From: an uncultured Fimbriimonadaceae bacterium
GTDB taxonomy: Bacteria > Armatimonadota > Fimbriimonadia > Fimbriimonadales > Fimbriimonadaceae
Assembly (NCBI GenBank): GCA_937961665.1
Contig: CALGMO010000100.1
Span: forward strand, 1-50,698
Direction: 5' to 3'
Length of the DNA: 50,698 bases
In this document: positions 15,468 through 22,460 of the stretch, piece by piece
Layout of the letters: each line of letters starts with the position of its first letter
Numbering within the stretch: position 1 is the stretch's first letter
Notes under the pieces: model-generated
The model's database searches: none
What the model saw: the letters and a program-made list of their open reading frames with translations, nothing else
Told to the model about the DNA's origin: nothing
Position numbers and translations under genes: made by a program

Positions 15468-15878
15468 ATGAATCTTGGACTGATCGGCGCGGCGCAGGTG
15501 GCGAGGAAGAGGGCCTACTGCCCTTACAGCGGCTACGCGGTCGGGGCTGCGCTCCTGGACGAGTCGGAACGCGTCCACACCGGCTGCAACGTGGAGAACG
15601 CGAGCCTCGGGGCGACGATCTGCGCGGAAAGGGCGGCCTTGGCCTGCCTCGTCAGCGCGGGAGGAAGGGAGGTGCGCGCGGTGGCGGTCGCGACGGAGGA
15701 CGGCTCCCCTCCCTGCGGCATCTGCCTCCAGTCCCTGCTCGAGTTCTGCCCCGATCCCAGCCTCGTGCCGGTCTACCTCAGCGACGCCCGCGGATCCGCG
15801 CGCTCGACGACGCTGGCAGCTCTGTTCCCCAGCGGCTTTCGGGGCGGGCCTAGGGCGAAGTCCGGCCCAGCATCCTGA
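15468..15878 (+). CDS. cdd: Cytidine deaminase
   Basis: The enzyme deaminates cytidine and deoxycytidine in pyrimidine salvage. The 136-residue product has the complete zinc site: Cys52 and the proton-shuttle Glu54 in TICAERAAL, and Cys83 and Cys86 in PPCGICLQ. Substrate-binding PYSGYAVGAAL and GCNVENAS are also present. Length is normal. The ATG at 15468 is 8 bases after the mutS2 stop, preceded by TCAGG, so it is probably co-transcribed with mutS2. Its 3' end overlaps the convergent amidase gene by 29 bases. Confidence 0.95.
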   Translation: MNLGLIGAAQVARKRAYCPYSGYAVGAALLDESERVHTGCNVENASLGATICAERAALACLVSAGGREVRAVAVATEDGSPPCGICLQSLLEFCPDPSLVPVYLSDARGSARSTTLAALFPSGFRGGPRAKSGPAS

Positions 15879-16713
15879 GCAGGGCCGGCAGCCTCTCCTT
15901 CAGGTCGCTGAGCAGCGGGGTCTGCGTGCGGGCGACCTCGATCAGGTCCAGGTCGAGCTCCGCCAACAGAAGCGTCTCCTCCAGGATCGGCGCGGATGCG
16001 ATCACCCGTCCGAACGGGTCGACGACCATGCTGCCGCCGATGAATCCCTTGCCCCCCTCGAACCCGACGAGCTGGGCGTTCACGCAGAACATCCCGTGCT
16101 CCTCGCACAGCCCGCGGAGCATCCGCTCGTACCGGTCGTGGTTCTCGATCTTCGGCCCCGCGAAGCCTCGAGCCGGCGAGGCCGAAGGCACGGCGAGAAC
16201 CTGGGCGCCGCGCAGGGCCGCCAACGTGGGCAGGATCGAGTGCCACACGTCCTCGCAGATCAGGTGCCCCACCCGACCGAAGCGCGCCTCCAGCACGCCG
16301 ACCTCGTGCCCGGCGCTGACGAACCGCTGCTCGTCGAACACGCCGTACGTGGGCAGGAAGAACTTCCGGTAGCTGGACAGCACCCTGGGCGCCCCGGCGC
16401 CGAGCTCCAGGTAGGCCGCGCTGTTGTACAGATCGCCCTCGAACCGCTCGTAGTAGCCCACCGTCGCGTCGATCGGTCGGTGCAGCCTGCCGGAAAGTCT
16501 GGCGCCGAGCTCGTGGGCCAGCTGCTCGGCGCGCAGCGCCAGCTCGATCACGCCTCCTTCCAGGAAGTAGCCCGTGGTGGCCGTCTCGGGAAACACCACC
16601 CAGTCCGCACCCTCATTGGAGGCCTGCTCGATCGCCTCGGCGATGCGGTCCAGGTTGCGGGCGAGCTCCCCCTTTTCCGGGGCGATCTGTGCGACGGCCA
16701 CAACGAGCGCCAT
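15850..16713 (-). CDS. Carbon-nitrogen hydrolase (nitrilase superfamily)
   Basis: Members hydrolyse amides or nitriles in the cytoplasm; the substrate here is unknown. The 287-residue protein has the full Glu-Lys-Cys triad: Glu43 in VFPETATTG, Lys117 in YRKFFLPTYGVFDEQR and Cys153 in LICEDVWH. The RKxFLPTYGVFDE pattern resembles glutaminase domains of NAD synthetases and stand-alone relatives, but no synthetase gene adjoins. The start lies 12 bases from the first base of the addA stop codon. TAAACT, which begins with that stop, ends 6 bases before the ATG. This suggests its own leaderless promoter within the addBA run. Confidence 0.9.
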   Translation of the reverse strand: MALVVAVAQIAPEKGELARNLDRIAEAIEQASNEGADWVVFPETATTGYFLEGGVIELALRAEQLAHELGARLSGRLHRPIDATVGYYERFEGDLYNSAAYLELGAGAPRVLSSYRKFFLPTYGVFDEQRFVSAGHEVGVLEARFGRVGHLICEDVWHSILPTLAALRGAQVLAVPSASPARGFAGPKIENHDRYERMLRGLCEEHGMFCVNAQLVGFEGGKGFIGGSMVVDPFGRVIASAPILEETLLLAELDLDLIEVARTQTPLLSDLKERLPALLRMLGRTSP

Positions 16714-16719
16714 GAGCCG

Positions 16720-16725
16720 AGTTTA
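16720..16725 (-). promoter_or_regulatory. -10-like TAAACT containing the addA stop codon
   Basis: The TAA stop of the upstream helicase gene is the first half of TAAACT, which ends 6 bases before the amidase ATG. The same geometry recurs at 24430-24435 and 41943-41948. Confidence 0.5.
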
Positions 16726-18978
16726 CCGGCCCTTCGGACCGTTGCCGAGCAGCCGGCGGAACGCCTGCTTCCGGACCATCCAGGCCCACGCGGTTGGCGC
16801 TCCCCTGGGCGCCGCCGGGCCGCAGAGGACCAACCTGTCCTTCGCACGCGTCAGGGCGACGTAGAGCACGCGGAGCTCCTCCTCCCGGTCCCGACCTTGG
16901 ATCGCGGCGACGGTCTTCACCCAGCAGGGTGCCTGGTTGGTGCGGAGCGACAGCACGAGGCGCCCGGCCCTGCGATCCACCACCAGCGGCCCCGGCGAGC
17001 GCGGCTTCTCGTCGAGTCCCACCACGAAAACGACGGGAAACTCCAAGCCCTTCGCCTTGTGGATGGTCATGACCCGCACCTCGTCGTCGTCCTCGTCCGA
17101 AACCGGCGCCTCTCCCTCGGCGTGGCGCATCCGCTCGATCTCCCGAATCTGGCTCGCGAACTCCCAAGGGCCCTGCTCGGGCGTCTCGGCAGCCAGCCGC
17201 AAGAGCTTGCGGACGTTCATCAGCGTCTGCCACGGGCCGTGGAACTCCGCAAAACGCTCCAGGCAACCCGAACGGGCGAACAGCTCCTTCAGCGCCTCCC
17301 AAGCCGACAGGCGGTCGGCGAAGGACGCCAGCTCCGAGAACCACTCCAAAAAGCGGTGCCAGGCTTCGCGATCCTCCTCCACCGGCGGTTCCCAGGAGCG
17401 CCAGTCCTCCGGCAGGCCGTCCAGAGCGATCGACGCGACCGAGTCCAGGCTCAGGCCGACGAGCGGTCCCCGGAGAAAGGCCAAGAAGGAGAGCCGATCG
17501 GACGGGTCCACCAGAGCGCGCAGGGCGTTCGCCATGTCGCGGATCTCCAGCCGGGTGTAGTAGTCCTCCGATTCGCCGAACAGCCGAGCCTGCAGGCCCG
17601 CTTGGCGCAGCGCCCGGTGGATCTCGGCGGCCTGCCACCGTCGTCGCGCCAGCACCGCGATGTCGCCCAAGCGGCACCCTTCCTCGGTCAGCTCCCGTAC
17701 TCGACGAACCAGCGGCCCCCAGCCCCGTTCGGCGAAGAGGAGCACCTCGACGGCGTCATACGGGGCCGCCTCTCCAGTCTCGGCCGGACTCATTCTCCCG
17801 CGGTTCGACCAGTCGTCGGCGAACAGGTCGTCGACGTACCTCAGAATGCTCTCCCGAGACCGGAAGTTCCGCGACAGGGGCAGCGCGTTGTGCTTCTCAG
17901 CGTGCCTCTCGAAGAGCGTCTTGTCCGCTTGGCGGAAGCCGTAGATCGACTGCTGCTCGTCGCCGACCAGCATCTCCTCGCCGCAGGACAGGAGCTCCAG
18001 AAGGCGATACTGCACCGGGTTCAGATCCTGAGCCTCGTCGACCAGAACGACGGGATAGGTTTCCCGGCACCTGGCCTGGACGGACGGACTCCGCTCCAGC
18101 AGATTCAGAGCGCCCGCCTCCAAGGCGGCGAAATCCAGCCAGCCTCGCGCGACCAGCTCGGCATCGTAGCTTCTCCAGACTTGGGCGACCAGACGGCCCA
18201 GCACGCAGCTGCTCTCGGCCGCGGTCCTGTCCTCGCCCGCGGCGTGCTCCGGCGACCTGGAGTTCAGCCTGCACCCGGGAGTCCTCCGAAGTCGGTCCAG
18301 AATGCTCCCGTAGTCCGGGCCTCCGTCCGCGTGGCTGGCCCAGCCTTCCCACAGATCCCGGAGCCAACGTGCGGGGTCTTCGCACGCCGCCTCGAGCGCC
18401 TCGGCGTCGACTCCCGTGCCCCGGAGGGAGTCGAAGGCCTCGCGGACCCACTGTGCGATCTCCTCGACGGCCTCCCGCTCCGACCGGTGCGGGTGCATCT
18501 CGAGCAGGCGCTCCAGGAGCCCCTGGAGCCCATCGTCCGTCTGCAGGGATTCCAGGACGGCGCCCTCGGCCAGCTCCCGAAGAAGGCGCCTCCGCTCGAA
18601 ACCCTCCTGCACTTCGAAGTCGGGGTCGATGCCTGCCGCCGCGGCGTTCTCGCGCAGCAACCTCTCGCAGAACCCGTGGATGGTCGAGATCGGGCCGGTC
18701 TCGGCGAGTTGGGCCTGGTCGGTCCGGCCGAGCTCGGTCAGGCGCCTCACGATGCGGCTCTTCATCTCGGCGGCGGCGCGCTTGGTGAACGTGATCGTGA
18801 GGATCCGATCCGCATCGAGCCCGGCCTCGAGGACGAAGCGGAGGAACCGCTCCACGAGGACCCGCGTCTTGCCCGACCCGGCGGCCGCGCGCACCACGAG
18901 CTTCGACCGGCAGGCCTCCACCACCTGCCGCTGCTCTTCGGATAGGTGGAGTGCCTCAGACGTCTCCATCGAACTCAT
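16723..18978 (-). CDS. AddA-like UvrD superfamily helicase, lacking the C-terminal nuclease domain
   Basis: This is the SF1 helicase partner of an AddAB-type double-strand-break processing complex. The 751-residue protein has Walker A AAAGSGKT (31-38), Walker B VVLVDEAQDLNP, LVGDEQQSIYGFRQAD, SRNFRS, VMTIHKAKGLEFPVVF, and motif VI LRVLYVALTRAKDRLVLCG. It ends about 40 residues after motif VI, where AddA proteins of about 1200 residues carry a PD-(D/E)XK nuclease. The 3' end is a clean stop followed by another gene. I chose the ATG at 18978, overlapping the addB end; an ATG at 18969 or 19041 is possible. The N-terminal METSEALHLSEEQRQVVEA fits the family. Confidence 0.88.
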   Translation of the reverse strand: MSSMETSEALHLSEEQRQVVEACRSKLVVRAAAGSGKTRVLVERFLRFVLEAGLDADRILTITFTKRAAAEMKSRIVRRLTELGRTDQAQLAETGPISTIHGFCERLLRENAAAAGIDPDFEVQEGFERRRLLRELAEGAVLESLQTDDGLQGLLERLLEMHPHRSEREAVEEIAQWVREAFDSLRGTGVDAEALEAACEDPARWLRDLWEGWASHADGGPDYGSILDRLRRTPGCRLNSRSPEHAAGEDRTAAESSCVLGRLVAQVWRSYDAELVARGWLDFAALEAGALNLLERSPSVQARCRETYPVVLVDEAQDLNPVQYRLLELLSCGEEMLVGDEQQSIYGFRQADKTLFERHAEKHNALPLSRNFRSRESILRYVDDLFADDWSNRGRMSPAETGEAAPYDAVEVLLFAERGWGPLVRRVRELTEEGCRLGDIAVLARRRWQAAEIHRALRQAGLQARLFGESEDYYTRLEIRDMANALRALVDPSDRLSFLAFLRGPLVGLSLDSVASIALDGLPEDWRSWEPPVEEDREAWHRFLEWFSELASFADRLSAWEALKELFARSGCLERFAEFHGPWQTLMNVRKLLRLAAETPEQGPWEFASQIREIERMRHAEGEAPVSDEDDDEVRVMTIHKAKGLEFPVVFVVGLDEKPRSPGPLVVDRRAGRLVLSLRTNQAPCWVKTVAAIQGRDREEELRVLYVALTRAKDRLVLCGPAAPRGAPTAWAWMVRKQAFRRLLGNGPKGR

Positions 18979-21799
18979 CCCGCTCGGGGAACCGCTTGGA
19001 GCGCCGGCAAAGCTCGCCGTAGGCGCATCGGTCGCACCCATCCCCCGGTTTGGGGGCGACCTCGAGGTTCCGAAGCACGCGTCCAGCCTCGCTGGCCAGC
19101 CTCTGGGCCGTGGACACCCACGACCGCGGGGTGCCCTCGATCGTCCGCCGTTCGACGCCGTGGTCCGGATCCCCGGGGCGAGTGCCCAGAGTGTCGCCCA
19201 GCGCGAACGCCCTCCGCCGGTTTCCGAAGGTCTCGAACTCGAGGTGGTAGGAGGCCCCCTTGCGAAACAGACCGACGATCAGGAGCGCCAGCAACAGCTC
19301 GTCCCGTTCCTCCAGCTTGTCCGCGTGCGGACCCGAGCCGTAGAAGGTCGCGCCCGCCGCACCCGGCGCCTCCCAGAGGACGTCGTACACGGCATCGAAC
19401 GGGAAGCGGCCGCCGTCCAGCGGCACGTACCCGTGCGTCCCGGGGGTGCCTGCCCGCACGCCGATCCCGACCACCTGCCGCGGCCACAGGCGTTGCGCCA
19501 CGCGCTCCCTCTCGAGCCACCTGCGAAGAACCCGCCTACCGACGGCGAGCAGGCTCTCAGCGAACCGGGCCCCCTCCGACCGCTCCGCCTCGCGGGCGAG
19601 CGCTGCGAGGGCATCCTCCACGATCGCCCAACCGTCATCCCTCCCGGCGGCCTCCGGCAAGCGGGCGCGCAGGGCGGCCTCGCGCACCAGGTGGCGCGGA
19701 TGCAGCCTGCGCCCGGACTCCAACCGAAGGCCGTGCCGGGCGAACGCGAGGAAGGGGCACTGGTACGCATCCAGAGCCCTTTCGTGCCATACGGCCCGCT
19801 GCCCGTCCCACGCGAGGCGGGTCCGCAGCTCCTCGGAACGGATCGCCGGCTCGGGCGACGCGCGGCGGGGAGCGGCCAGGGCCTCCGACAGCGCCCGATC
19901 CGCCTCCGGGCATACGGGGCTTTCCGCTGAGGGAAGCTCCTTCCGACGAAAGACCTTGGTCTTGGACCCTGTGAGGCGCTCCACCTCCCGCAGGTAGAAC
20001 GCCGGCACGTTGTCGCGCTCGTCGTCGGTCTGCGGGTAGCTCAGCGTGAGGCGCTTCCGAGGTGTGGAGCAGAGGGCGACGAACTCGTCCCGCTCCCTTC
20101 TCGCCGCCGCCCGCGAATCGTCGAGCGGAGGGTCCAGGCGCAACGCTTCGTTGAGGAACGCTCGGTCGGCATCCCAGAGGATCGGGTCCTCCGACCGCCG
20201 GCGCGGCAGCTGTCCCTCGAGCATCCCCATCAAGTACAGGCTGTCCACCGCCGGGACGTCCGCCGCGCGGGAGACCACCAGCACGCCGTCCTCGCGGTCT
20301 CGAACCGTCGACTCCGCGTTCTGCCAGATCTCAAGAGCCAGATCGCGAAACCGACGGACGTCCAGGGCGCCGCCGCCAAGGGCCCTGGCCACCGCGGCCC
20401 GCGCCGACAGCGTGGCCTGAAGCTGCCTCATCGCCCTCCGGTCTCGCGCGGAGAGGTGCCTCGGGCCCGAATCGTCGGCGGCCCAGTCCCCCTCGTCCAT
20501 CAGGTCCCGCAACCAGATGACCCAGGCCGCCAGCGACTTGGAGGCGCCCCCCGCCTCCCGGCGCCGCCGAAGCAAACCCGGCAGCCAGCTGGCTCGTTCC
20601 TGATTCGCGTCGGCCCAGCCTTCCAGGAAGGCCCACGGATCCGCCGTCCGCTCCGCTTCCGCCAACGCATGGCGCAGGCCCTCGCGGTCCGTTCGGCTGA
20701 GAGTCCCGTAGCGGAACGGGAGCAGCGCCTCCACGCTTCGGACCTGGTCGGAGGCGCAGACTTCCAAAACGGCCTGCACCAGCCTCGCGAAGCCGTTCGA
20801 ACGCAGCGGGACGGTGGTTGGGATCGAGATCGGCAGACCGAGCCTCGCGGCGGCCGTGTCCAGATAGGGCACCATCGCCGGGAGGTCGCGCGTCACGATC
20901 GCGATCCGCTCCGGCGGCAGGCCCTCCTGGAGGTCGGCGAGGCACCCACGCACGACCCACTCCGCCTCGAAGAACGGATCCGGGGTGCTCCAAACTCTGG
21001 CCTCGGCTCCCCCCTCCGTCGGTCGTCCGCCGAACAGCCCGCCGACCCAACCCGCCGGATCGCCGACGGCGCGGGCTTCGGCACCGAGCGAAGCCACCCA
21101 CCGGGCTGCCCCGTCGAAGCCGATCTCGCCGCCGGGATGGCGGTGGACGAGCATGCGAACGTCGCAGCCGTGGCGGACCAGCCACTCGACGAACCTCGCC
21201 CGTCGGGGCGTGTATTCCGCATCGGCCAGGAGGACGGCCGGCGGAAGCGACTGCCCGGGGTCCGGCTCGGAGGACTCCACATCGTCCAAGGTGTCGGACA
21301 GGACGGCGTACCCGATCTTCCTCAGCAGCTCCCGAAACTCCTCCTCGATCTGGAGGAGCGCCTCCAGCTTCCGGCCGAGGTCCTTCCCAGCCTGCCGGCG
21401 CGCCTGTTCCAAAAGCGTGGGGTCGACGCCCCACTCCCGCAGCTCGCTGAGCGTCCGGCACAGCGCGCGGTGAAGGCCGCCGAAGCGCCGGGACTCATAG
21501 AAGGGCGAATCGGAAGGCTGGCCGGCGCAGACCTCGGCCATGGCGGCCAGCTGCAGCTCCTCCGAGGCCAGACGCTGGGCGAAGCCCCCGCAGAACTCCA
21601 GCGTCTGACCCACCCACTCGTGGAAGGCTACGGCCGTCGCCCCGGAACCCTCGCCCAAGACGCCGCTCGCGGCCCGCAACCGACCGGCCGAGAACGCGAC
21701 CAGCAACGTGCCTTCCTTCGCACACGCCTTCACCAGCCAGTCCTGGTACCGATCCAAACCTGGCGCCGCGGCCACCACTTCCAGCAGGTTCCGAGCCAT
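18956..21799 (-). CDS. AddB-like protein with Fe-S cysteines but degenerate PD-(D/E)XK nuclease site
   Basis: The 947-residue protein matches AddB/RexB in layout: an inactivated helicase-like N-terminal half and a C-terminal nuclease-fold domain. The iron-sulfur ligands are present as Cys681 (YQCPFLAF) and Cys922, Cys925 and Cys931 (CDRCAYGELC, spacing C-x2-C-x5-C). The catalytic motif, usually IDYK, reads ATFYGSG at about 817-823, so both the acidic residue and the lysine are missing. The following Gln motif also appears lost (ELLLALLI). An acidic DAVYD (802-806) remains. The N-terminus has no intact Walker A. The ATG at 21799 has TACACT 11 bases upstream. The gene is followed, with overlap, by addA, as in genuine add operons. 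Confidence 0.85.
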   Translation of the reverse strand: MARNLLEVVAAAPGLDRYQDWLVKACAKEGTLLVAFSAGRLRAASGVLGEGSGATAVAFHEWVGQTLEFCGGFAQRLASEELQLAAMAEVCAGQPSDSPFYESRRFGGLHRALCRTLSELREWGVDPTLLEQARRQAGKDLGRKLEALLQIEEEFRELLRKIGYAVLSDTLDDVESSEPDPGQSLPPAVLLADAEYTPRRARFVEWLVRHGCDVRMLVHRHPGGEIGFDGAARWVASLGAEARAVGDPAGWVGGLFGGRPTEGGAEARVWSTPDPFFEAEWVVRGCLADLQEGLPPERIAIVTRDLPAMVPYLDTAAARLGLPISIPTTVPLRSNGFARLVQAVLEVCASDQVRSVEALLPFRYGTLSRTDREGLRHALAEAERTADPWAFLEGWADANQERASWLPGLLRRRREAGGASKSLAAWVIWLRDLMDEGDWAADDSGPRHLSARDRRAMRQLQATLSARAAVARALGGGALDVRRFRDLALEIWQNAESTVRDREDGVLVVSRAADVPAVDSLYLMGMLEGQLPRRRSEDPILWDADRAFLNEALRLDPPLDDSRAAARRERDEFVALCSTPRKRLTLSYPQTDDERDNVPAFYLREVERLTGSKTKVFRRKELPSAESPVCPEADRALSEALAAPRRASPEPAIRSEELRTRLAWDGQRAVWHERALDAYQCPFLAFARHGLRLESGRRLHPRHLVREAALRARLPEAAGRDDGWAIVEDALAALAREAERSEGARFAESLLAVGRRVLRRWLERERVAQRLWPRQVVGIGVRAGTPGTHGYVPLDGGRFPFDAVYDVLWEAPGAAGATFYGSGPHADKLEERDELLLALLIVGLFRKGASYHLEFETFGNRRRAFALGDTLGTRPGDPDHGVERRTIEGTPRSWVSTAQRLASEAGRVLRNLEVAPKPGDGCDRCAYGELCRRSKRFPERDEFDGDV

Positions 21800-21810
21800 C
21801 GGGCGTCCCG

Positions 21811-21820
21811 AGTGTATCAT
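21811..21820. promoter_or_regulatory. Overlapping divergent -10 boxes (TACACT on minus, TATCAT on plus)
   Basis: On the minus strand TACACT (21811-21816) points to the AddB-like gene. On the plus strand TATCAT (21815-21820) lies 7 bases before a GTG at 21828. The two boxes share two bases, so RNA polymerase could not occupy both at once. Confidence 0.45.
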
Positions 21821-21884
21821 GCCCCGTGTGAGCCGCGAAGACCCTCGGAGGCCGCGAGCCCGCGCATGGAACTGGAGGCGACAG

Positions 21885-22460
21885 ATGGCCGGAAACCTCC
21901 TGCCCGTCGCCTTGGCGGCGATCCCCCTGCTAATCGGAATCCGGCTCGCGATCCGCACTGGCGACACGCTGGGGCCGGCCCTCGCCTGGGTCGCGGCCTC
22001 GCCGATCGTCGGTTGGCTGGCCGCCAACCTGTTCGGCCTCGTCGGCAATGGCGCTCTGCGCCGGGAGGTGGCCCAACGGGTTCCCCACCCCCGCGCGGCG
22101 CTGTTCGTCGGCTTCGCGAGCCCCGGCCACTGGGGTCTGCTGGACGCCCACGAGGATGTGGGGTTCCTCTACTGGACCGAGGACCGGATCGTGTTCGCGG
22201 GGGAGCGAGCCCAGGTGGTGCTGCCCAGGTCGGGAGTGCGCCGGGTCGGCTTTCGACCCAACCCCCACACCTGGGCCCTCTTGGGCGGCTGGGTGTGCGT
22301 CGAGGCGGAGGTCGACGGAAAGCGCGCCCGGCTGCTGATCGAGCCGCGGGAACGGGCGACCCTGATCGGCAACGCGCGGCTTTCCCGGAGGCTGATCCGA
22401 GAGCTCAGGTCGTGGGCTTCGGCCGGAGGTGCGACGCCCACCACCGAACGATCTCGTTGA
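21885..22460 (+). CDS. Unrecognised membrane protein
   Basis: I do not recognise this protein. From the ATG at 21885 it has 191 residues with two hydrophobic N-terminal segments (about 3-22 and 28-50). A soluble beta-rich domain follows, with SPGHWGLLDAHEDVGFLYW and DRIVFAGERAQVVLPRSGV, resembling a PH-like or immunoglobulin-like sheet. GGAGG lies 6 bases before this ATG. An in-frame GTG at 21828, 7 bases after TATCAT, would add 19 Arg-rich residues and be leaderless; the choice is open. It is divergent from the AddB-like gene, and its 3' end overlaps the convergent S9 peptidase by 56 bases. Confidence 0.7.
   Translation: MAGNLLPVALAAIPLLIGIRLAIRTGDTLGPALAWVAASPIVGWLAANLFGLVGNGALRREVAQRVPHPRAALFVGFASPGHWGLLDAHEDVGFLYWTEDRIVFAGERAQVVLPRSGVRRVGFRPNPHTWALLGGWVCVEAEVDGKRARLLIEPRERATLIGNARLSRRLIRELRSWASAGGATPTTERSR

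Follow-up and report, generated by a model that had tools for sequence, protein, structure and literature searches.

The window analysed here is a 50,698-nucleotide stretch of contig CALGMO010000100.1 from an uncultured Fimbriimonadaceae bacterium. Its minus strand carries the genes of an AddB-like and an AddA-like protein, with the AddB-like gene first and the AddA-like gene overlapping its 3' end by 23 bases. Both open reading frames lie where the first-pass annotation, which described an AddA/AddB-like pair that appears to lack any functional nuclease, had placed them. The features of the locus are as follows.

15850-16713, minus strand: carbon-nitrogen hydrolase gene, directly downstream of the pair, position conserved
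16723-18978, minus strand: AddA-like SF1A helicase gene (751 amino acids), without a C-terminal nuclease domain
16843-16863, minus strand: helicase motif VI of the AddA-like protein, YVALTRA, residues 706-712
18865-18888, minus strand: Walker A motif of the AddA-like protein, AAAGSGKT, residues 31-38
18956-21799, minus strand: AddB-like gene (947 amino acids), encoding a helicase-like N-terminal part and a nuclease-like C-terminal domain without catalytic residues
19007-19036, minus strand: codons of AddB-like residues 922-931, with Cys922, Cys925 and Cys931 as three putative Fe-S ligands
19331-19354, minus strand: GATFYGSG, AddB-like residues 816-823, aligned with the (V/I)DYK catalytic motif
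19382-19384, minus strand: codon of AddB-like D806, in the column of the upstream GxxD aspartate, the only aspartate column of the catalytic site where the window has kept an acidic residue
19757-19759, minus strand: codon of AddB-like Cys681, the first putative Fe-S ligand
21708-22460, plus strand: divergent open reading frame of about 250 amino acids at the far end of the pair, beside the AddB-like gene, position conserved

The AddA-like protein retains all helicase motifs and matches the Pfam families UvrD-helicase (E 1.2e-58) and UvrD_C (E 3.6e-32), both over the cut-off. Among 14 orthologues, the Walker A residues A31, A33, G34, G36, K37 and T38 and the motor residues K37, D314, E315, R349 and R711 are invariant. 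The earlier claim that the protein ends soon after motif VI without a nuclease was borne out, since only 39 residues follow the motif and no PDDEXK domain was matched in Pfam. Against NCBIfam models, the AddA-like protein scores 275 bits with addA_Gpos (cut-off 708) and the AddB-like protein 31.9 bits with addB_Gpos (cut-off 904); the AddB-like protein also reaches 19.5 bits with Pfam PF12705 (PDDEXK_1), below the cut-off of 22. When a profile of the nuclease-dead AddB sequences was searched against the PDB, the sole match was Bacillus subtilis AddB (E 1.4e-19), and the dead and live AddB profiles aligned with each other across their length (E 6.4e-83). A same-genus contig with an 86% identical protein comes from Armatimonadetes bacterium UBA8783. 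A structure model of the C-terminal domain (AddB-like residues 640-947), predicted with one relative, L054, was of low confidence (mean pLDDT 37.6, pTM 0.33).

In the IDYK columns of the AddB-like protein, F819 replaces the aspartate and G821 replaces the lysine, on which two separately made alignments agree. The annotation had proposed that the catalytic motif was replaced and that the acidic and lysine residues were both gone; this holds for the IDYK columns and the lysine, but D806 is kept, so that not all acids have disappeared. Substitutions have likewise removed the His, Glu and QxxxY motif residues in the window (L710, G780 and L836/L840). The four cysteines reported earlier, Cys681, Cys922, Cys925 and Cys931, were confirmed, and in the alignment they fall on the Fe-S cysteines of intact AddB orthologues. 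Because this putative Fe-S site outlived the active site, it suggests a role for the site apart from catalysis.

The conservation of this loss was followed in an alignment of 48 AddB orthologues together with canonical AddB, of which 38 belong to f1 and f5 (the window's family and a single sister family) and 10 to three other families of the order (f2, f3 and f4). None of the 38 has a complete catalytic set of two acids and a lysine or arginine, whereas D/D/K is intact in all ten of the others, which also keep H, E, Q and Y at the nuclease positions. In a second alignment limited to the C-terminal part, no f1 or f5 row carries an acid and a lysine in the DxK columns. Judged from these counts in dead and intact orthologues, the catalytic loss is more than chance or sequencing error would produce. 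All four Fe-S cysteines are nevertheless found in 37 of the 38 dead rows, the remaining one being interrupted by N's (G008). In a few dead rows IDYQ or VDYR is left, as would be expected of decay from an active ancestor. Residues of PD-(D/E)XK enzymes can migrate, and a rearranged active site is conceivable because D806 and such relics remain; 13 of the 38 dead rows, among them the window, still have D in the GxxD column. A cryptic nuclease, in which acidic and basic residues at shifted positions restore an active site, would nonetheless be very improbable, as the His, Glu and QxxxY positions were lost too and the pattern D-(8-24)-[DE]xK, sought in the stretch bounded by the Fe-S cysteines, had no match in the window's AddB-like protein and only unshared matches in other rows.

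The pair is widespread and constrained. Relatives of the AddB-like protein (P0002) occur in 59 of 61 genomes of the order, as do those of the AddA-like protein (P0001) at E 1e-20, a count in which the sole match of a few genomes is a PcrA/UvrD-type helicase. Between the window and its relative G001, dN/dS is 0.118 for AddB (0.141 for the nuclease-like part) and 0.142 for AddA over 440 codons; against G002, where dS exceeds 1, it is 0.24-0.27. The values of 0.12-0.14 show that the pair is under constraint. An order of AddB, AddA and carbon-nitrogen hydrolase, with the divergent open reading frame upstream, recurs among 20 loci (20 have AddA, 19 AddB, 15 the hydrolase and 18 the divergent frame). 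The hydrolase is not obviously part of the mechanism; the divergent frame at 21708-22460 matched no family, and its product looks membrane-bound from its sequence. In two genomes (G015 and G030), the AddA and AddB genes sit on different contigs. That the genes might be decaying pseudogenes, or encode a phage-defence helicase, is barely credible. The best PADLOC matches of the AddA-like protein are GajB-type UvrD helicases, and in Gabija such a helicase stands beside the nuclease GajA; the match, however, probably reflects the shared SF1A fold, and the conserved partner of the AddA-like protein is AddB-like. Both readings were rejected on the low dN/dS, the relatives in 59 of 61 genomes, the maintained gene order and a tree that tracks family groups, and the defence role allowed by the annotation is not favoured, given the near-universal presence of the pair in the order.

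The order in which the two nucleases were lost can be approached through AddA. In the five families of the order, AddA is about 730-875 amino acids long and has no DYK motif, apart from one longer protein whose reading frame runs upstream (L035), two cut by contig ends (L006 and L092) and one that is split (L051). Elsewhere in the phylum, the 11 AddAs fetched from f12, f13, f19 and f24 are 889-995 amino acids long and all lack DYK, whereas the eight from f20, f21, f31, f32, f34, f41 and f42 are 1175-1256 amino acids long and all have it; in f24, the short AddA adjoins an AddB with an intact TDYK. A tree of 70 AddA rows, each cut back to its helicase part if motif VI could be located, was computed quickly under LG+G4 with no bootstraps, leaving out the partial or split L006, L051 and L092; one of its five outgroup rows was placed on the wrong side. 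The short AddAs of all nine groups (f1-f5, f12, f13, f19 and f24) form one clade (SH-aLRT 96), inside which the AddB-dead pairs of f1 and f5 form one clade of their own (SH-aLRT 100). Because the AddB-dead clade is nested in this way, the simplest history would be a single, first loss of the AddA nuclease, followed by a single, later loss of the AddB nuclease in the common ancestor of f1 and f5. In B. subtilis, as described in PMC4824097 and PMC4027173, the AddA nuclease cuts the 3' strand and the AddB nuclease the 5' strand, and it is the AddA nuclease that Chi is believed to silence. By analogy, an intermediate with the AddB nuclease alone would resemble post-Chi AddAB. Separately, the AddA-like frame of one genome (L051:12043-14376, G026) is split by an in-frame TAG into frames of 489 and 280 amino acids, which may be either a sequencing error or a recent inactivation.

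The window's own genome holds further nucleases. A PDDEXK_1 search of it matched three proteins; contig C78 (L004:3254-9329) encodes an adjoining AddB of 925 and AddA of 1101 amino acids with intact nuclease motifs in both, and contig C121 a stand-alone nuclease of 259 amino acids (L001:1462-2238, minus strand). Because of this canonical AddAB, the window pair is a second and diverged AddAB-type pair in its genome. Neither the intact AddAB nor the intact nuclease motif in the AddB of sister families had been part of the annotation. The genus mate G002 has, on its contig C42, an AddA similar to the canonical one of C78. In a hand-read table, about 38 of 45 f1 and f5 genomes have no other open reading frame above 900 amino acids with a PDDEXK_1 match, among them four single-contig genomes (G009, G011, G019 and G034); the exceptions are G000, G001 (fragments), G002, G012, G013, G015 and G029. 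G029 has a single frame of 2028 amino acids (L074:4238-10324) that combines an AddA-like part with two PDDEXK_1 matches and resembles an AddAB-type enzyme fused into one chain.

These distributions bear on what the pair may act upon. It could serve another substrate, such as stalled forks, bound proteins to be cleared or gaps on which RecA is loaded, while other enzymes resect breaks. Both the window's genome and G002 keep the dead pair beside a nuclease-proficient AddAB-type enzyme, and the pair's dN/dS stays low; the window pair may do something else in its own genome because an intact AddAB is also present there. As a general account this is unlikely, since most f1 and f5 genomes have no other long helicase-nuclease, which makes the pair a natural candidate for break repair.

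If breaks are its substrate, the cutting enzyme would have to be encoded elsewhere, and candidates are present, in agreement with the earlier suggestion of a partner nuclease encoded elsewhere. RecJ was found in 57 of 61 genomes of the order (50/50 high-quality ones) and RecO in 59 (48/50); because RecJ is near-universal here, its presence does not single it out. In two f2 genomes (G056, contig C30; G058, contig C9), recJ and the short AddA gene are about 4-5 kb apart. Another candidate is the stand-alone nuclease, an Fe-S RecB/Cas4-like protein of about 260 amino acids (L001:1462-2238, minus strand), which might dock on the pair and replace its lost domains, thereby forming a split AddAB. A hand-read count shows it clearly in 57 of the order's 61 genomes (fragments or weak matches in G001, G014, G024 and G057), its catalytic motif is intact (GRIDRL, VDYKS), and in G039 and G049 no more than 20 kb separate its gene from that of AddB (L056:4769-5584 and L057:16521-17366). 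Outside the order, it accompanies 21 of 23 short-AddA genomes compared with 3 of 31 genomes with a long AddA or a weaker AddA-like match, a set in which G190, G212, G215 and G216 are included on a weaker AddA-profile match. This association may, however, represent a single event because the short-AddA genomes form one clade. The nuclease is also present in families whose AddB motif is intact, so it did not arise when AddB died, and in f10, f11 and f26, whose best matches to the AddA profile are no stronger than a UvrD would give; in the window's genome, its gene lies away from the pair, adjoining a gene that is presumably mqnA-like. Since it occurs both without a clear AddA match and with an intact AddB, docking of this nuclease was ranked second and appears rather unlikely. 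A somewhat wider proposal is offered tentatively, as possible but short of likely, namely that this Armatimonadota clade repairs breaks by a split system in which a nuclease-free Fe-S AddAB motor brings in, in trans, a separately encoded nuclease of the RecB family (or RecJ), with cutting uncoupled from unwinding, reached via a 5'-strand-only intermediate resembling post-Chi AddAB.

Among known systems, mycobacterial AdnAB is likewise a two-subunit end-resection enzyme of the same superfamily, but it has nuclease domains. The PDB chains 7sjr_B and 6ppu_B, which we take to be AdnB, match the live AddB profile weakly (E 7e-12) and were not matched by the dead AddB profile in the PDB profile search. 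B. subtilis AddAB (PDB 3u44, 3u4q and 4ceh) shares the SF1A motor of AddA, the helicase-like part of AddB and the Fe-S cysteines; unlike the window pair, with none in either subunit, it has a nuclease in each, one per strand, as described in PMC4824097. In Escherichia coli RecBCD, RecC keeps a nuclease-like domain without catalytic residues as a DNA guide, according to PMC1185551. The window's AddB-like protein differs from RecC in keeping the Fe-S cysteines, and its AddA-like motor from RecB in having no nuclease, so the pair shows neither the nuclease-bearing RecB nor the Fe-S-free RecC that mark RecBCD. Nuclease-less RecBCD enzymes (E. coli RecB D1080A; Pseudomonas syringae) are also helicases without a nuclease that work in vivo with RecJ implicated (PMC2828478 and PMC5823372), but these are laboratory mutants with three subunits and two motors, whereas the Armatimonadota pair would be a natural fixed state. 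AddAB and RecBCD were surveyed in 2009 (Cromie, as cited in PMC6452273). Searches of the open-access literature on AddAB/AddB nuclease loss, Armatimonadetes AddAB and Fimbriimonas RecB turned up no description of an AddAB that is nuclease-free in nature.

The best explanation, which we regard as fairly probable, is that an AddAB-derived complex without both nuclease sites works as an end-binding helicase, with cutting left to enzymes acting in trans. The annotation's idea of a helicase-only pair needing a nuclease from elsewhere is thus supported by the clade-wide loss, the conserved motor and Fe-S residues and the presence elsewhere of RecJ and the stand-alone nuclease. The residue loss, its conservation, the order of losses, the constraint and the presence of RecJ and RecO were established from sequence, in mostly draft genomes. 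In the proposed mechanism, an Fe-S cluster would assemble in the AddB-like protein, whose Fe-S-stapled nuclease-like fold and helicase-like scaffold may hold the DNA end and guide the strands. The AddA-like protein, as the sole motor, would then unwind the broken end. The 5' strand could be removed in trans, most likely by RecJ and perhaps also by the stand-alone RecB-type nuclease, after which RecA may be loaded via RecFOR. This arrangement would have arisen in two steps, with loss of the AddA nuclease and then of the AddB nuclease in the common ancestor of two families. The AddAB Fe-S cluster has been reported to be essential for binding broken DNA (Yeeles 2009), and a dead nuclease-like domain can serve as a DNA hoop in RecC (PMC1185551); both would fit a dead domain kept for holding DNA. 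As reported in PMC2828478, a P. syringae RecB that lacks the nuclease domain can still sustain repair, and plasmid-borne recJ restores the growth rate; E. coli recB1080 is likewise thought to resect with RecJ (PMC5823372). On the other hand, work cited in PMC2828478 holds that the E. coli RecBCD pathway needs nuclease activity.

On this reading, the pair is probably a helicase that opens broken DNA ends while a different enzyme cuts them. In the laboratory, nuclease-dead RecBCD has been used to ask if break repair can manage with unwinding and no cutting. Across f1 and f5, the nuclease-dead state seems to have become fixed in evolution, and intermediates survive in other families; for this reason, the same question may become testable in nature.
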